DNA of 53,702 bases from Candidatus Portnoyibacteriota bacterium (GTDB taxonomy: Bacteria; Patescibacteriota; Minisyncoccia; Portnoybacterales; GWB1-42-6), in assembly GCA_028688325.1 (NCBI GenBank), contig JAQTYI010000001.1, positions 366,620 to 420,321 on the forward strand. Direction: 5' to 3'. The notes under the pieces were generated by a model, which saw nothing but the letters and a program-made list of their open reading frames with translations, was not told the DNA's origin and made no database searches. This document shows, piece after piece, positions 2,737 through 53,702 of this stretch; the first letter of the stretch is position 1, and every line of letters starts with the position of its first letter. The position numbers were made by a program, and so were the translations under genes.

Positions 2737-2871
2737 ATCCTGACATCCGACAACCCAAGTATTAAAGAATTTTTTCGGTTGTCGGATGTTGCCAGATTAA
2801 ATTTAACACTTTGACATCCGATGTCCTGAATGCAGGGTGCTTAATATTCGGGACATCGGATGTCAAAAATC
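2737..2871. repeat. Double-hairpin repeat, family D copy 1
   Basis: Two adjacent hairpins are present: GACATCCGACAACC pairs with GGTTGTCGGATGT, then GACATCCGATGTCC pairs with GGGACATCGGATGTC. The same two-hairpin unit, with the shared linker GCCAGATTAAATT, lies at 7213-7345 in front of serS. Here it directly precedes the RNHCP gene. Confidence 0.85.
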
Positions 2872-3177
2872 ATGCAATCAAAAAAATTCCAGCGCAAAAT
2901 AGAGGATTTTGTTTGCGAGCATTGCGGCACGAGCGTCGAAGGCACGGGCTACACGGACCATTGCCCGATTTGTTTATGGTCAAAACATGTTGACATGAAC
3001 CCGGGCGACCGGGCGGCGGATTGCCGCGCAATGATGGAGCCGGTCGGCATTGAAATTAAGGGTAATGAAAAAATAATTTATTACCAATGCCAAAAATGCG
3101 GTTTGAAACATCGCGTCAAATCGGCACCCGATGACAATTTCGAGGAGATATTAAAATTGACCAGAAGGGGAATTTAA
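2872..3177 (+). CDS. RNHCP-domain zinc-binding protein
   Basis: This small protein of about 101 residues has two cysteine pairs, CEHC and CPIC, and the signature HCPICLWSKHVDMNPGDR, close to the RNHCP family motif. A second zinc-like pair, CQKC, follows. The molecular role of RNHCP proteins is not established. An ATG at 2860 is also possible but falls inside the repeat hairpin, so 2872 is chosen. It sits 16 bp before trpS in the same direction and may be co-transcribed with the synthetase genes. Confidence 0.75.
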   Translation: MQSKKFQRKIEDFVCEHCGTSVEGTGYTDHCPICLWSKHVDMNPGDRAADCRAMMEPVGIEIKGNEKIIYYQCQKCGLKHRVKSAPDDNFEEILKLTRRGI

Positions 3178-17135: not shown

Positions 17136-17783
17136 ATGGGACAAGTAAATGAGTTGAAGGATTTTACACGTGGACAGTTAGACTCGGCTTTGATGAAAAT
17201 CGGACAGGACGCCGGCATGGGCACCGCGGAAGGTATTCGCGCTTTTCTGTCGGGCGAGTTGATTATTTCCAGACCGTCATGTCTCTGGCGTGAACAAGAC
17301 GGTGTCATCTATTTCTCGGTCACATCGGACAACACCACTGGCCTGCAGTGGATAGAGCGTTTGGAAAAGAAGAAGTTTCGAGTCAGCGATTATGCCAAAA
17401 TTCTGCTCCGTTCTCCGGATTTCGAACCGACCAGCGGCGTGACCTATCACATCGCGGTCATCAAAGGAATGTTCTTTGAGGATAAAGACCGCATCACCAA
17501 AAACATCCGCGCCGGGGCCGAAAAGAGAAACTGGCAAAAGCCCAATGCCGAAGTCGCCTGTCTTATCCGTGAGAAGTTCTCAGATAAGGAATTAGAGGCC
17601 ATGGGTCTTTGGTGGATTGTGACAATGCACGAACCCATTAAAGATTCTTACGGCGATTTGCGTCTCCTGGGTGTGAGCCGGGGCGGTGATGGTCGGTGGT
17701 TGCGCACGGACTACGGCGGCCCTGCTGACAGGTGGTATCGTGACCGTGGGTTCGCGTTCGTCGTCTCGCAAGTTGGTGCTTAG
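17136..17783 (+). CDS. DGR 1 target protein with C-terminal variable region
   Basis: The protein has 215 residues and starts at ATG 17136 behind AAAGGAGG. The last 45 residues or so, from SYGDLRLLGVSRGGDGRW to FAFVVSQ, are encoded by the variable repeat and match the template at 18150-18277 except mainly where the template has A. The constant part contains WWIVTMHEPI just before the VR. The DGRW and FAFVVSQ framework recalls the C-type-lectin-like fold of DGR targets, which presents variable residues on a binding surface; this is inferred. No signal peptide or membrane segment is seen, so the protein appears cytoplasmic and the ligand is unknown. Confidence 0.9.
   Translation: MGQVNELKDFTRGQLDSALMKIGQDAGMGTAEGIRAFLSGELIISRPSCLWREQDGVIYFSVTSDNTTGLQWIERLEKKKFRVSDYAKILLRSPDFEPTSGVTYHIAVIKGMFFEDKDRITKNIRAGAEKRNWQKPNAEVACLIREKFSDKELEAMGLWWIVTMHEPIKDSYGDLRLLGVSRGGDGRWLRTDYGGPADRWYRDRGFAFVVSQVGA
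17644..17771 (+). repeat. DGR 1 variable repeat (VR1)
   Basis: VR1 is 128 bp at the 3' end of the target gene. It aligns without gaps to TR1 (offset 506). There are 20 differences: 17 at template adenines (12 to G, 4 to C, 1 to T) and 3 elsewhere (G to T at 17649, T to G at 17708 and 17709). The last 24 bases, GGGTTCGCGTTCGTCGTC plus TCGCAA, are identical and are the likely initiation-of-homing site. Confidence 0.95.
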
Positions 17784-17912: not shown

Positions 17913-18300
17913 GGTAGTAGGAAATGTACGGATGACTAAGGTTTTCCGTCTCCGAATCCAGTATCCATACATTGAGATTATCTCAGATCAAGATTTGAGA
18001 TAGCGCGATGTATGCAGATCCGCCCGCCTTGGGCGGGAACTTCAAAAAACGAAGATACTTGGTATGAGATGTTATGGCATCTAAAATGCCGAATTAGATA
18101 CAGCTCAAAGAGTATTCAATGAGCAGTGACATGGATGGCACTTCATACAATTCTGACGGCGATTTGAATCTCCTGGATGTGAACCGGAACGATGATGGTC
18201 GGTGGTTGAACACTTACTACGACAACCCTGATAACAGGTGGAATCGTGACAATGGGTTCGCGTTCGTCGTCTCGCAACTCACTTCATTTCTCTCCCGGCT
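17913..18300 (+). ncRNA. DGR 1 template RNA (limits approximate)
   Basis: No convincing gene lies between the target terminator and avd. The stretch can fold: CATACAT (17966) pairs with ATGTATG (18008) enclosing TATCTCA/TGAGATA. AAGATACTTGG (18052) and AGAGTATTC (18109) also occur in DGR 2 with the same 57-bp separation and can pair through GATACT/AGTATT. TR1 follows. In known DGRs the TR is transcribed in a non-coding RNA used by the reverse transcriptase. The 3' end is not visible; a GC hairpin (CCGG arms) lies at 18293-18317, antisense to the avd end. Confidence 0.7.
18150..18277 (+). repeat. DGR 1 template repeat (TR1)
   Basis: TR1 is the 128-bp template for VR1. In the VR frame it is rich in AAC and AAT codons (DLNLLDVNRNDDGRW pattern), the codons that adenine mutagenesis diversifies most. 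It has 31 adenines, 17 of them changed in VR1. None of its codons can become a stop by changing an A. It ends 6 bp before the antisense avd stop. The short frame open through it is not regarded as a gene. Confidence 0.95.
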
Positions 18301-18622
18301 TTTTGCCCGGAGAGTTTTGTTTTAGAAGCTGGCCGTGCCAGCCGCCAAGCATTTTGCCAATCTCGGTTAATTTTTCCGAAAGTGCGATATATTTTTTATT
18401 GTCCAGTGATTTGGTTTCCCAAAGAATCATCAGGAATATTTTAAGGGTGTCGGTTTTGCGAATTGCTAATCCGACATATGGTAATTTTTCTTCCGGCTTT
18501 AAAAAGACGGCGATGGCAACGGCTTCAATAATTTCTGTCAATAAGTTGTCTATCTTTTTACCCAGGGTATAGCGATGCGTCCTTGGCAGGATTTGATAAT
18601 ATCCATACCAAATGATATACAA
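18284..18622 (-). CDS. avd: Avd-like DGR accessory protein
   Basis: This is a predicted four-helix-bundle protein of the Avd family, a basic pentamer that binds the reverse transcriptase and template RNA in studied DGRs. Signature parts are LPRTHRYTLGKKID near the N-terminus and SLDNKKYIALSEKL plus EIGKMLGGW near the C-terminus. It aligns without gaps in these blocks to the DGR 2 copy. The TTG at 18622 is taken as start. Alignment to DGR 2 suggests the protein begins 7 codons earlier at CTG (18643), giving 119 residues. Unusually it lies between TR and RT on the opposite strand, its 3' end meeting the 3' end of TR1. Confidence 0.85.
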   Translation of the reverse strand: MYIIWYGYYQILPRTHRYTLGKKIDNLLTEIIEAVAIAVFLKPEEKLPYVGLAIRKTDTLKIFLMILWETKSLDNKKYIALSEKLTEIGKMLGGWHGQLLKQNSPGKKPGEK

Positions 18623-18656
18623 AGATTTAATTTTTTGAAGCAGGGAAGGAAGTGTC

Positions 18657-18666
18657 GGGGGGGGGG
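18657..18666. repeat. Run of ten G between avd and RT
   Basis: A G10 tract followed by CGTTAAAA lies between the divergent avd and RT starts, 18 bp before the RT ATG. DGR 2 has exactly the same G10-CGTTAAAA at 53580-53597. Confidence 0.85.
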
Positions 18667-18684
18667 CGTTAAAAATTCATTTTT

Positions 18685-19677
18685 ATGAAAAGCCAATTGA
18701 TCCATAGTTTTGATAAGATTATTAGCATTGAAAATTTACTGGAAGCCTGGAAAGAGTTTTTGCGTGGCAAGCGAGGCAAAAAGGATGTGCAGGGATTTTC
18801 TTTGAATCTGATGGACAATATTTTTTCGCTTCACGATGATCTATTTAATCATACCTATAAGCACGGCGGTTATCAAGCGTTCAATATTTGCGACCCGAAG
18901 CACCGGGCAATACACAAAGCGAGTGTGCGCGACCGGCTGCTGCACCACGCAATTTATAGAGTTCTTTACCCATTTTTTGCCAAGACATTCATTGCCGATT
19001 CTTTTTCTTGCCAGCTTGGCAAGGGAACACATCGGGCATTAAATCGTTTTCGCGAGTTTTCTCAAATAGTCAGCAAAAACAATACTTGTTCTTGCCGGGT
19101 TTTGAAATGCGACATCAAAAAGTTTTTTGCCAGTATAGACCAGGCGGTTTTGTTGGATATTTTAAGGCGATATATCCCGGAACGTGAAACTGTTTGGTTG
19201 CTTGAAGGGATAATTTATAGTTTTCATGCAGAACCGAGCAAGGGCTTACCTTTGGGCAATTTGACTTCGCAATTGCTGGTTAATATTTATATGAACGAAT
19301 TTGACCAGTTTGTGAAGCATAAACTGAAAGTGAAATATTATATTCGCTACGCCGATGACTTCGTGATATTTTCAGAAAATCGCGAATGGCTGCAAAAACT
19401 TATTGCCGCCATCGATGATTTTTTATCGTATAAATTAAAACTAAAATTACATCCCAACAAAGTTTTTATAAAATCACTGCATTCAGGCGTGGATTTCCTC
19501 GGTTGGGTTAATTTTCCCGATCATCGGGTATTGCGGACAACGACCAAGCGGCGCATGATGCGAAGATTGCGAGAAAATAAATTCAATGCCGCTTTCAGTT
19601 CTTATTTAGGGTTGCTTAAACATGGTAATGCTCGTAAAATAGAGGAGGGGATAAAGGATTTAATGATTGAGAAATAG
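18685..19677 (+). CDS. DGR reverse transcriptase
   Basis: The protein has 330 residues with all RT core motifs: CDIKKFFASID (catalytic Asp 143), GLPLGNLTSQ (187-196), YIRYADDFVIFS (YADD 222-225) and FLGW (271-274). The LGNLTSQ form, with SQ in place of the usual QG, is the hallmark of DGR reverse transcriptases, which copy the TR with errors at adenines. The absence of a maturase or endonuclease domain argues against a group II intron. ATG 18685 is the start; no normal Shine-Dalgarno is seen, only the distant G10 tract. The start matches the DGR 2 RT residue for residue in the LLEAWKEFL block. Confidence 0.96.
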   Translation: MKSQLIHSFDKIISIENLLEAWKEFLRGKRGKKDVQGFSLNLMDNIFSLHDDLFNHTYKHGGYQAFNICDPKHRAIHKASVRDRLLHHAIYRVLYPFFAKTFIADSFSCQLGKGTHRALNRFREFSQIVSKNNTCSCRVLKCDIKKFFASIDQAVLLDILRRYIPERETVWLLEGIIYSFHAEPSKGLPLGNLTSQLLVNIYMNEFDQFVKHKLKVKYYIRYADDFVIFSENREWLQKLIAAIDDFLSYKLKLKLHPNKVFIKSLHSGVDFLGWVNFPDHRVLRTTTKRRMMRRLRENKFNAAFSSYLGLLKHGNARKIEEGIKDLMIEK

Positions 19678-26101: not shown

Positions 26102-28396
26102 TTATTCCTTTATTGTCGGTTTGGCTTCTTTTTCCTTATAATCGCATTCTTTGTTGCTGCATTTTACGCCGTGCTTGTTTTCAATCAGGGGGGACTCGCA
26201 CTTGGGGCACTTATCTCCCGTGGGCTTATCCCAGAGCGCAAAATCGCATTCGGGATAGCGGGAACAGCCATAGAACATTTTACCTCTTTTGGTGCGCCTG
26301 GCAATGACCTTGCCTTCAACGCATTTTGGGCAGGCCATGGCGTTGGGATCGCTGACGCTGGCGGTGTAGCGGCATTTGGGAAAATTCGAGCAGGCGTAAA
26401 ATTTACCAAAGCGGCTGGTTCGGATGACGACCGGCGCGCCGCATTTGGGGCAAATTTTATCCGTGGCTTCGGGCGCGGTTTTTTGTTCCTTGACCTCGTC
26501 GTATTTTTTAGTGAGATTGACCTTGAATGGTTCGTAAAATTCTTTGATGACCTCGGTCCAGGGAATCTCGCCTTCGGCAATCCTATCAAAGTCCTCCTCG
26601 ATGTGAGCGGTGAATTTTATATCCACAACTTGCGGAAAATGCTCAACGAGCAGGTCGTTGACCTTAAAGCCGATTTCCGTGGGCATGAATTTCCTGTTCT
26701 CATCTTTATTGACATAGTTCCTTTCCTGGATGGTGGAAATGATGGGCGCATAAGTTGAGGGGCGTCCGATGCCTTCCGCTTCCAGCGCCTTAATGATGGA
26801 GGCCTCCGAGTAGCGCGCGGGGGGCTGCGTAAAGTGCTGGCCGGGATTTAATTTCACCAAGTTCAGATTTTCTTTGACCTCAAGCGGCGGCAGGATATTT
26901 TCCTGCATCTTGCCATTATAGATCTTCAAAAAGCCGTCAAATTTTATTTGCGAACCGTTGGCACGGAAGATATAAATATTATTTTTGTCATTCTGAGGGA
27001 GCTCCGCGACCGAAGAATCTTTTTTTAGATCCTTCCCCCGCTGCTGCGGGGTCAGGATGACACCGTGGGATCCCTTCGCATCGACATCAACGGTCAGGGT
27101 ATTTATCACGGCGCTAGCCATTTGGCAGGCGAGCGTCCGGCGCCAGATAAGGTCATAAAGCTTATATTGCTGCGGCGTTAAAAATTGCTCGATTTTTTCC
27201 GGAGCGAGAGAAATGAGAGTCGGCCTTATCGCCTCATGCGCTTCCTGCGCACCTTTGGATTTGGTTTTATAGACGCGCGCGTTTTCGGGCAGATATTCTT
27301 TGCCGAAGCTGTCTATTATATATTGGCCGATGGAGCTTAGTGCCTCTTGCGCCAGATTGGTTGAATCGGTGCGCATATAGGTTATCAAGCCCACTGAGCC
27401 CTCTTTACCCAGCGCAATGCCTTCATATAATTGTTGGGCTATCTGCATCGTCTGTTTGGCGGAAAAATGCAGTTTGTTGACCGCGTCCTGCTGCAGGGTG
27501 CTCGTGACAAACGGCGGGGCCGGATGTTTTTGCGTGTCTTTCTGTTCGATGTTGGCAACCTGCCAGGCGGCGCCGGCCAGATCATCAACTATCTTTTGCG
27601 CTTCCGCCTGCGTTTTTATGCCGAGCTTGGGAATCTGTTTATCATTTATCCTTATCAGATTGGCGTCAAATTGCCCTTCGGTATTTTCTTCGGTTTTGAC
27701 TTTTGAGTTTTGACTTTTGAGCTTGAGGAGCGTAGCGACGATTGACCAGTATTCTTCCGGCTTGAATTTTTGGATTTCCCTTTCCCGTTCCACTATCAAG
27801 CGCACGGCCACCGATTGCACGCGGCCGGCCGAAAGCCCCTTGGCGATTTTTTTCCATAAAAAAGGCGAGAGCTCATAGCCCACAAGCCGATCCAGAATCC
27901 TGCGCGCCTGCTGGGCGTTAACCAGATCCATATCTATTTCTCGCGGATTTTGCAGAGCTTTCTCTATCGCGCCTTTGGTTATTTCATGAAAAACGATTCG
28001 TTCAACTACCGCTTCTGACGGATGAGATTTTTTTAACCCCCCTTTGCCCCCCTTTAAAAGGGGGGTTGGGGGGGGGTTAGATTTCGCGGAATCCGCAGTT
28101 TCCAGATCCAAGGCCTGGGTCAAATGCCAGGCAATGGCTTCTCCTTCGCGGTCTTCGTCGGAAGCCAGGATGACTTTTTTCGCTTTTGGCAAAACTTTTT
28201 TTATTTCCGCCAGTTTTTTGCGCGCGGCAATGGAGACCACATATTTGGGTTCGAAATTATGTTCGGTGTCTACGCCGAGTTTTCCTTTGGGCAGATCACG
28301 CACATGTCCGTAGGACGAGCGCACAACAAAATCAGCGGGCAGGAACCGCTGGATTGTTTTGGCCTTGGTAGGCGATTCAACGATAATTAGATTCAT
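26102..28396 (-). CDS. topA: DNA topoisomerase I
   Basis: Type IA topoisomerase relaxing negative supercoils. TOPRIM starts MNLIIVESPTKAKTI and has DEDREGEAIAWHL. The active tyrosine is in GLITYMRTDSTNL. Three C-terminal four-cysteine zinc fingers begin CPKCGAP, CPKCVEG and CPKCESP. 764 residues include two in-frame repeat-derived inserts: NPPPTPLLKGGKGGLKK near residue 115, and HGVILTPQQRGKDL to LPQNDK near 450. Both lie between conserved blocks, so the enzyme is probably active. Confidence 0.96.
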   Translation of the reverse strand: MNLIIVESPTKAKTIQRFLPADFVVRSSYGHVRDLPKGKLGVDTEHNFEPKYVVSIAARKKLAEIKKVLPKAKKVILASDEDREGEAIAWHLTQALDLETADSAKSNPPPTPLLKGGKGGLKKSHPSEAVVERIVFHEITKGAIEKALQNPREIDMDLVNAQQARRILDRLVGYELSPFLWKKIAKGLSAGRVQSVAVRLIVEREREIQKFKPEEYWSIVATLLKLKSQNSKVKTEENTEGQFDANLIRINDKQIPKLGIKTQAEAQKIVDDLAGAAWQVANIEQKDTQKHPAPPFVTSTLQQDAVNKLHFSAKQTMQIAQQLYEGIALGKEGSVGLITYMRTDSTNLAQEALSSIGQYIIDSFGKEYLPENARVYKTKSKGAQEAHEAIRPTLISLAPEKIEQFLTPQQYKLYDLIWRRTLACQMASAVINTLTVDVDAKGSHGVILTPQQRGKDLKKDSSVAELPQNDKNNIYIFRANGSQIKFDGFLKIYNGKMQENILPPLEVKENLNLVKLNPGQHFTQPPARYSEASIIKALEAEGIGRPSTYAPIISTIQERNYVNKDENRKFMPTEIGFKVNDLLVEHFPQVVDIKFTAHIEEDFDRIAEGEIPWTEVIKEFYEPFKVNLTKKYDEVKEQKTAPEATDKICPKCGAPVVIRTSRFGKFYACSNFPKCRYTASVSDPNAMACPKCVEGKVIARRTKRGKMFYGCSRYPECDFALWDKPTGDKCPKCESPLIENKHGVKCSNKECDYKEKEAKPTIKE
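26983..27062. repeat. GTCATTCTGAG-type repeat inside topA
   Basis: TTGTCATTCTGAGGGAGC to GGGGTCAGGATGACACC is a full palindromic element lying in frame in topA. It keeps the frame open over about 27 codons. Confidence 0.85.
28033..28081. repeat. C/G-rich repeat inside topA
   Basis: TTAACCCCCCTTTGCCCCCC and AAAAGGGGGGTTGGGGGG (family C) lie in frame, encoding the proline/glycine-rich insert near residue 115. Confidence 0.85.
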
Positions 28397-52128: not shown

Positions 52129-52749
52129 ATGGTAAAAGACATGCTCGGTGCGTTGATGCGGAAGATTGTGAATCTCTCATTGGAAATGCTTAAAGTTATC
52201 TACGATCTGGTGGAGAAGCTGTCGGGCGAAGCAGGCCAAGAATGGCTTGCTGAACTTAAAAAATTTCTCCGTAAGGAGAATTGCTGGACAGGCGTTATTG
52301 AGAATACCGCTCAGCAAGCAAAAAACATTTTTCATCTTATGGTCGGCGGCAATCGCACCACGGAAGAAATGGTTAAAGCCGGAAAATATGACTGGTCAAA
52401 TGGCGACATAACCAGCAAAAATTTTCCTATGCGGCCGCGACCAGCCGGTAAAAGAATCATTGAGTTGATTGAGCTTGACCACGGTCCGACTTCTGAAGAA
52501 GTTCTTGCCGAGGCAGAAAGACTTGGACTGGAGAGGCCGGTTTATGAGGATGCCTTATTTTTCGGGGAGCAATTTCCCGAAAAGCAGCGGGAACGGCCAA
52601 TCGTGTTTTTGCATGAACCTTGGCAGAGCCCGGGCGGTGGCCTTCGTGTGCTGGTGCTCGACAGTATTTCTGTGGAGCGCGGTCTGAGCCTGCGTTGGTT
52701 TGGCCACAGGTGGGATCGCTACTGCATGTTCGCTTTTGTCCGCAAGTAG
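52129..52749 (+). CDS. DGR 2 target protein with C-terminal variable region
   Basis: 206 residues starting at ATG 52129 behind GGGAGG. The N-terminal about 55 residues are helical (LSLEMLKVIYDLVEKL). A middle part contains TEEMVKAGKYDWSNGDITSK. The last 42 residues, after VFLHEPW, are encoded by VR2; LSLRWFGHRWDRYCMFAFVRK is the end. The RWF...W...C-FAFVRK frame is a pattern I associate with a group of hypothetical CPR proteins. A C-type-lectin-like fold is inferred. No signal peptide. The rest differs from the DGR 1 target. Confidence 0.9.
   Translation: MVKDMLGALMRKIVNLSLEMLKVIYDLVEKLSGEAGQEWLAELKKFLRKENCWTGVIENTAQQAKNIFHLMVGGNRTTEEMVKAGKYDWSNGDITSKNFPMRPRPAGKRIIELIELDHGPTSEEVLAEAERLGLERPVYEDALFFGEQFPEKQRERPIVFLHEPWQSPGGGLRVLVLDSISVERGLSLRWFGHRWDRYCMFAFVRK
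52621..52745 (+). repeat. DGR 2 variable repeat (VR2)
   Basis: 125 bp aligned without gaps to TR2 (offset 463). There are 19 differences, every one at a template adenine (14 to G, 3 to C, 2 to T). The last 20 bases, ATGTTCGCTTTTGTCCGCAA, are identical and likely form the homing start. Confidence 0.97.
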
Positions 52750-52858: not shown

Positions 52859-53240
52859 CGGACAGTAAACTCAAAATAAGTTTTCGGTTACGGCTGAAAA
52901 CAGTTGGAATCCGGGGTTATTTAGCAGGGAATGGCACAGGACAAGTTTTGTGCCAGAGTTGTTTTTTAACTCCTAAAAAACAAAGATACTTGGCGTAAAA
53001 TATTGGAGGATCATATATCCCGAATAAAATTCAGCCCCGAGAGTATTCTAAGGGCGGTGGCATAGATGATATTTTGCGCATAATGGCAGAACCCGGACGG
53101 TAACCTTAATGTGCTGGTGCTCAACAGTAATTCTGTGAAGCGCAATCTGAACCTGAATTGGTTTGACAACAGGTGGAATCGCAACTACATGTTCGCTTTT
53201 GTCCGCAACTATCTTTTTTCCCCGCCAGGCGCGGGGTTTT
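52859..53240 (+). ncRNA. DGR 2 template RNA (limits approximate)
   Basis: The region has no gene. AAGATACTTGG (52983) and AGAGTATTC (53040) are 57 bp apart as in DGR 1. TTTTCGGTTACGGCTGAAAA and GGCACAGGACAAGTTTTGTG-type hairpins occur upstream. TR2 follows. A GC hairpin CCCCGC/GCGGGG (53221-53236) lies right after it, antisense to the avd end. Confidence 0.7.
53084..53208 (+). repeat. DGR 2 template repeat (TR2)
   Basis: The 125-bp template holds 33 adenines, 19 of them changed in VR2. In the VR frame it reads mostly AAC/AAT at the variable sites (SNSVKRNLNLNWFDNRWN). One AAG codon could become a TAG stop. It ends exactly where the antisense avd stop codon begins. Confidence 0.97.
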
Positions 53241-53565
53241 CTCTTAATAATTGTTTTTGCCAACCCCCTATCATTTTACCGATTTCGCCTAATCGTTCAG
53301 AAAGAGCGATATATTTTTTGTTATCCAGAGATTTTATTTCCCAAGCGATTTGGACAAAAAATTTCAGCAAATCAAGTTTGGCGCCAGCTTTTTGCACGAA
53401 TGGCATTTTTTGATTTTTAGCCAAGCGACTGGCGATAAAAATAATCTCGGTCGTTTCAATAATCAATCCGTCAATTTTTATTCCCAGAGTATAGCGTGAT
53501 GTTTTTGGGATATGCGGCAAGAAATCGTGCCAGAGTTTGTAGGCGGCAATTAGTTTTTGGACCAA
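53209..53565 (-). CDS. avd: Avd-like DGR accessory protein
   Basis: 118 residues from TTG 53565. KTSRYTLGIKIDGL, SLDNKKYIALSERL and EIGKMIGGWQKQLL match the DGR 1 Avd block by block, with the same spacing. Predicted four-helix bundle that binds the reverse transcriptase and template RNA. It is antisense to, and directly abuts, TR2. The frame stays open further upstream through the C-run, so a start further out cannot be excluded. Confidence 0.87.
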   Translation of the reverse strand: MVQKLIAAYKLWHDFLPHIPKTSRYTLGIKIDGLIIETTEIIFIASRLAKNQKMPFVQKAGAKLDLLKFFVQIAWEIKSLDNKKYIALSERLGEIGKMIGGWQKQLLRENPAPGGEKR

Positions 53566-53579
53566 TGATAGATTTGTCT

Positions 53580-53589
53580 GGGGGGGGGG
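53580..53589. repeat. Run of ten G between avd and RT, DGR 2
   Basis: G10 followed by CGTTAAAA, 19 bp before the RT ATG; the same as 18657-18674. Confidence 0.85.
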
Positions 53590-53608: not shown

Positions 53609-53702
53609 ATGAAAATTCAATTGGTCCATAAATTTGAAGATATAATTAACATTGAAAATTTGCTGGAAGCATGGAAGGAATTTTTGAAGGGTAAAAAACA
53701 GC
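53609..53702 (+). CDS. DGR reverse transcriptase, N-terminal fragment
   Basis: 31 codons before the window ends: QLVHKFEDIINIENLLEAWK is 20 of them. Matches the DGR 1 RT start in IENLLEAWKEFL and in the spacing from the G10 tract. The catalytic motifs would lie beyond the window. The identification rests on this match and on the TR/avd context. Confidence 0.88.
   Translation, partial: MKIQLVHKFEDIINIENLLEAWKEFLKGKKQ

Follow-up and report, generated by a model that had tools for sequence, protein, structure and literature searches.

A repeat tract in avd very probably turns targeted hypermutation on and off, reversibly, across a large group of tiny uncultivated bacteria

Two DGR cassettes with the same G10 tract

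If a run of exactly ten G residues stands beside the reverse transcriptase (RT) gene in each of two DGR cassettes of one small genome, what is it for? The stretch of DNA analysed here (the window, 53,702 nucleotides in all) comes from a patescibacterial genome of 911 kb in 8 contigs. Both of its DGR cassettes have the same order: a target gene ending in the VR, the TR, avd on the reverse strand, the tract, and the RT gene on the forward strand (Table 1). The presence of an RT (PF00078), Avd (PF22296) and a TR/VR pair with changes at TR adenines identifies them as DGRs, and because most TR-VR mismatches lie at TR adenines, both have been active. The first Avd exceeds the Pfam cut-off, while its score against the NCBIfam Avd model is below the cut-off of that model. 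In both cassettes, avd is antisense to the stretch directly after the TR (18150-18655 and 53084-53579 for TR and avd together), such that an equivalent of the cDNA-priming spacer of BPP-1 would overlap the opposite-strand avd.

Table 1. Positions of the features of the two DGR cassettes in the window.
Feature	Position	Strand	Remarks
Target gene, DGR 1	17136..17783	+	No Pfam match
VR, DGR 1	17644..17771	+	17/20 TR-VR mismatches at TR adenines
TR, DGR 1	18150..18277	+	
Avd domain, avd copy 1, including stop codon	18284..18655	-	Pfam PF22296 (bAvd) above cut-off
Predicted OFF frame at C10, avd copy 1	18550..18705	-	51-residue product leaving the Avd frame at the tract
Tract, DGR copy 1 (putatively phase-variable)	18657..18666		G10 on +, C10 in avd sense; OFF at C10, ON at C8 or C11
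avd leader, copy 1, start codon to tract	18667..18705	-	13 codons (MDQLAFHKNEFLT); overlaps the RT start head to head
DGR reverse transcriptase, copy 1	18685..19677	+	PF00078; 330 aa
avd start codon (ATG), copy 1	18703..18705	-	Antisense to RT codon 7 (CAT)
VR, DGR 2	52621..52748	+	19/20 TR-VR mismatches at TR adenines
TR, DGR 2	53084..53211	+	
Avd domain, avd copy 2, part downstream of the tract	53209..53579	-	PF22296 and ORF
Tract, DGR copy 2	53580..53589		OFF at C10, ON at C9 or C12; inside the 127-base contig-end overlap with C8
RT copy 2, truncated by the contig end	53609..53702	+	
avd start codon, copy 2	53627..53629	-	Antisense to RT codon 7

An earlier note on this DNA had reported G10 followed by CGTTAAAA at both sites. 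This arrangement is indeed present at both, and the window genome has it a third time, on another contig (C8); no avd beyond these three was found there. Runs of this kind are rare, as only five runs of at least nine G occur in the whole 911 kb and three of the five are the DGR tract sites. For comparison, 182 distinct divergent avd-RT loci were collected, with avd found by profile search; those relatives whose records carry a name belong to the Patescibacteria, and most of them to the Parcubacteria. At the tract site, these loci have 144 runs of at least eight C, versus four runs of at least eight G or C in 680,470 bases of their flanking DNA, and chance is therefore excluded.

From 53576 to the end of the window at 53702, all 127 bases match the C8 copy exactly, suggesting an assembly junction at k=127. 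Due to this identity, copy 2 downstream of 53576 is not an independent witness. An assembly artefact was considered as the origin of the tract and rejected: although copy 2 lies at a contig junction, many independent assemblies contain the tract. Contig C8 (the two ends of which are loci L005 and L006) has a remnant RT at its far end. This remnant shares 92% identity with the C8 RT over 404 bases, carries an insert near RT residues 182-186, and may be the rest of DGR copy 2. Elsewhere in the window, the gene for DNA topoisomerase I (26102-28396, reverse strand) has an apparent in-frame insert at 28040-28090 (about SNPPPTPLLKGGKGGLKKSHPSEA), composed of a C-run/G-run repeat with a C9 run in it.

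The avd gene starts inside the RT gene

The tract had been placed between divergent starts of avd and RT. Instead, it lies inside avd, which begins on the opposite strand within the RT gene. The frame of the Avd domain is open through the C10 run in copies 1 and 2, and neither copy has an ATG, GTG or TTG in this frame, be it upstream of the tract or between tract and domain. In the relatives, the frame of an ATG antisense to RT codon 7 leaves the RT gene at its start and continues into the tract. Codon usage is strongly constrained at this position: CAT occupies RT codon 7 in 127 loci, with no instance of CAC, versus 402 CAT to 330 CAC among the other histidines of the RT region. The same holds in the more GC-rich loci, with a CAT:CAC ratio of 46:0 at codon 7 and of 128:130 at other RT histidines. 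Additionally, among 100 C-tract loci with the codon-7 ATG, a stop codon intervenes before the tract in the ATG frame in 2, compared to 27 and 76 in the other two frames. An upstream ATG that is open into the tract is present in all 145 of 145 C-tract loci; in 47 loci such an ATG is at a position other than codon 7, where shuffled sequence gives an expectation of 19.5. Together, the CAT-only codon 7, the open ATG frame and the presence of an ATG in every C-tract locus show that the antisense ATG is the avd start. It follows that avd and RT overlap head to head, with the tract inside the avd reading frame, and by this frame the tract is translated as a short proline run (Pro-Pro-Pro) in the Avd leader.

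Alternatively, translation of Avd could begin past the tract, at TTG or another codon, with the tract as an untranslated promoter or leader element. A start codon in frame between tract and domain, mostly TTG, is found in 68/145 C-tract loci, and in 46/145 a TTG is located just ahead of the Avd domain. However, 77/145 have no ATG, GTG or TTG in this interval, and a downstream start leaves the CAT-only codon 7, the open ATG frame and the frame-locked loci without a repeat (see below) unexplained, which makes this reading very improbable. In those loci that have an in-frame start past the tract, some Avd could be made independently of the tract; the window copies have no such codon. Two other roles were considered for the tract as a regulatory element and rejected. 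A promoter -10 element beside it is not apparent, as the base profiles after the tract are A/T-rich and have no consistent hexamer. A Shine-Dalgarno role for RT is inconsistent with the distance between tract and RT, usually 13-24 nt and ranging from overlap to 259 nt.

In one relative (L049, at about 2840-3010), an element of ~100 bp with the ends CCCCGTTAGAAAT and ATTTCTAACGGGG separates the repeat from the RT start, and brings a new in-frame ATG for avd.

Repeats and reading frames among related loci

L070, where the site is masked, and the irregular L204 could not be scored, which leaves 180 of the 182 loci. Of these, 159 have a simple repeat in the interval from the ATG to the Avd domain. 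Most are poly-C (146, including L245), with lengths in the relatives of 7 to 14 and mostly 8 to 11. Ten are CT repeats (including the short (CT)4 of L214), and single loci have CA, 11 copies of CAAC, and six copies of the 7-mer GCCAGCC. The repeat units are thus 1, 2, 4 or 7 bases long and none is a multiple of three. Repeat classes switch ~22 times on the locus tree, with repeat loss counted. For instance, L221 is repeat-free and in frame, and is the nearest relative of L231, which has (CAAC)11. As five different repeat units occupy one site, switchability itself appears to be selected.

The reading frames differ sharply between loci with and without a repeat. The ATG is in frame with Avd in 21/21 repeat-free loci. 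By contrast, among the 110 repeat loci with a codon-7 ATG, 17 are in frame (ON) and 93 are out of frame (OFF), the latter divided between the two wrong frames as 53 and 40. The difference in frame status between repeat and repeat-free loci has a Fisher p of 2.8e-14, and the ON fraction is below one third with a p of 4e-5; the loci are related, and both values are to be taken as guides. Related DGRs that lack the tract, which the earlier note regarded as counting against a function, therefore do exist, yet they are locked in frame and favour a switch.

A one-base difference in the avd frame across the tract, also noted before, is real and separates copy 1 from the other copies in the window genome. 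As a consequence, the ON lengths differ, being C8 or C11 for copy 1 and C9 or C12 for copies 2 and 3. At ON lengths the Avd product would have 132 to 140 residues. In the assembly consensus, all three avd copies are OFF at C10. From the frame difference, the earlier note had concluded that the tract is conserved at the level of DNA or RNA. This is half right, since the tract is translated and a variable frame is the hallmark of a switch.

The proposed switch and its alternatives

The reading that best accommodates these observations is a translational phase switch, i.e. a contingency locus of the slipped-strand type near the 5' end of the avd coding sequence, and on the sequence evidence we consider this very likely. 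Through this switch, targeted hypermutation would very probably be turned on and off reversibly in a large group of very small bacteria that have not been cultured. Translation of avd would begin at the ATG antisense to RT codon 7 and run through the poly-C into the Avd domain, and slippage during replication would add or remove repeat units. One frame in three would give full-length Avd (ON), and the other two would give short nonsense products (OFF). OFF cells would keep the RT and the template and have no hypermutation, and ON cells would arise from them reversibly, presumably within a single population. For Patescibacteria broadly, it is likely that a phase switch of avd controls the DGR hypermutator, such that the majority of assembled alleles are OFF and the rare ON cells can diversify the target proteins. 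Of the proposal that the tract could switch RT or avd, the part concerning avd translation is thus strongly supported and the part concerning RT expression is not, as the tract is outside the RT coding sequence in the window copies.

The main rival is recoding at the RNA level. In this case, slippage of RNA polymerase or ribosomal frameshifting would yield some full-length Avd from every allele, and the tract would set a low constant dose rather than a heritable state. The excess of OFF alleles, and the conservation of Avd in pairs in which both members are OFF, would be accounted for. Nevertheless, there is no single conserved offset at a slippery sequence: both wrong frames are in use, such that no one fixed shift fits, and some loci have (CT)n, (CAAC)n or 7-mer repeats, which are not known to be slippery for polymerase or ribosome. 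The repeat-free loci, moreover, are exactly in frame. The two wrong frames and the non-slippery repeats weaken the case for recoding, which appears unlikely. The proportion of OFF alleles, which exceeds two thirds, is at odds with neutral switching, and may reflect selection for OFF or a leak at the RNA level.

A G-quadruplex, an R-loop or a structural RNA element that requires the G run itself, as had also been proposed, would fit the G10 in all three copies of the window genome. However, the length of the run varies from 7 to 14 and its distance to RT from overlap to 259 nt, and neither length nor spacing is fixed. Furthermore, relatives have (CT)n, (CA)n, (CAAC)n or the 7-mer at the same spot (on the RT-sense strand GA, GT, GTTG or 7-mer repeats), or have no repeat there and are in frame. 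Such an element is extremely unlikely. A polypurine or R-loop role was suggested by the (GA)n loci in particular, and was dropped in view of (GT)n, (GTTG)n and the 7-mer at the same place.

Repeat number, selection and mismatch repair

If avd is controlled by a phase switch, then the repeat number should differ between close relatives while the protein is maintained. In the closest pairs, the repeat number is usually different and the frame is often changed. For instance, L224 has (CT)8 and is OFF, and L226, at 91% identity, has (CT)6 and is ON. Similarly, C8 in L102 is OFF versus C10 in L113, which is ON, and C8 in L215 and C9 in L235 are both OFF with different frames. The repeat number also differs between L184 and L200; these four pairs are species, not strains. 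Within one genome, C10 in L093 is OFF and C9 in L097 is ON.

The Avd domains of OFF alleles are intact. Values of dN/dS for Avd are between 0.02 and 0.23, OFF/OFF pairs included, and indicate strong purifying selection; window avd copy 1 compared with L009, both OFF alleles, gives 0.04. Avd is usually out of frame and yet conserved, and it is therefore expressed often enough for selection to act.

MutS was not detected in the window genome and 19 relatives, and MutL was not detected in the window genome, in searches for which control genomes were positive in 11 of 14 cases. In the apparent absence of these proteins, instability of long repeats is to be expected, as is their decay if selection did not maintain them. 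Long G/C runs are indeed nearly absent from the flanking DNA.

Relation to known systems

Genes with tetranucleotide repeats in Haemophilus are simple-sequence-repeat (SSR) contingency loci, and in most known loci of this type the genes that are switched are for surface structures or DNA methyltransferases. Campylobacter jejuni has polyG/polyC genes of the same type (PMC4965091). The avd loci resemble them in having a non-triplet repeat in the 5' coding part, the number of which varies between relatives, and in-frame and out-of-frame alleles in which the gene downstream of the repeat is otherwise intact. Unlike in known SSR loci, the switched gene encodes the accessory protein of a hypermutation system, and the start codon is antisense inside the neighbouring RT gene.

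With the Bordetella phage BPP-1 DGR (avd-TR-brt; PMC12875486), the present cassettes share RT, Avd, TR, VR and adenine-directed changes. In BPP-1, avd is upstream of the TR and co-oriented with it, whereas here it is on the opposite strand with TR on one side and RT on the other, overlaps the latter head to head and bears the repeat. Avd is a partner of RT that is required for homing in BPP-1, and in a reconstituted BPP-1 DGR nonsense mutations in avd lower repair to ~1e-9 (PMC12875486). As Avd is essential in that DGR, Avd OFF should, by analogy, silence homing by the patescibacterial DGRs as well.

By host group, and by targets without recognisable Pfam domains, the cassettes are similar to the patescibacterial DGRs in clade 2 of Roux et al. 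2021 (PMC8144416). That study does not mention homopolymers or a switch, and its sole passage on a 'phase' concerns diversification and selection. It leaves undecided whether the slower turnover of cellular targets is due to control of RT activity or to selection. No report of a phase-variable DGR or of a repeat switch in avd was found in the literature searched, which covered few subscription papers. Repeat-based phase variation has long been known, and so have DGRs; what sets the present case apart is that a switch of the known type acts on a hypermutation accessory gene, that the start is unusual in being antisense, and that the arrangement is found in many species.

A heritable on/off switch of avd would be a concrete answer to how cellular DGRs avoid constant mutation, and, if true, a contingency locus would here control another diversity generator. 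The state of the switch should be readable as tract length in existing metagenome reads. Additionally, the avd genes of many Patescibacteria are likely to escape automatic annotation or to be labelled pseudogenes.
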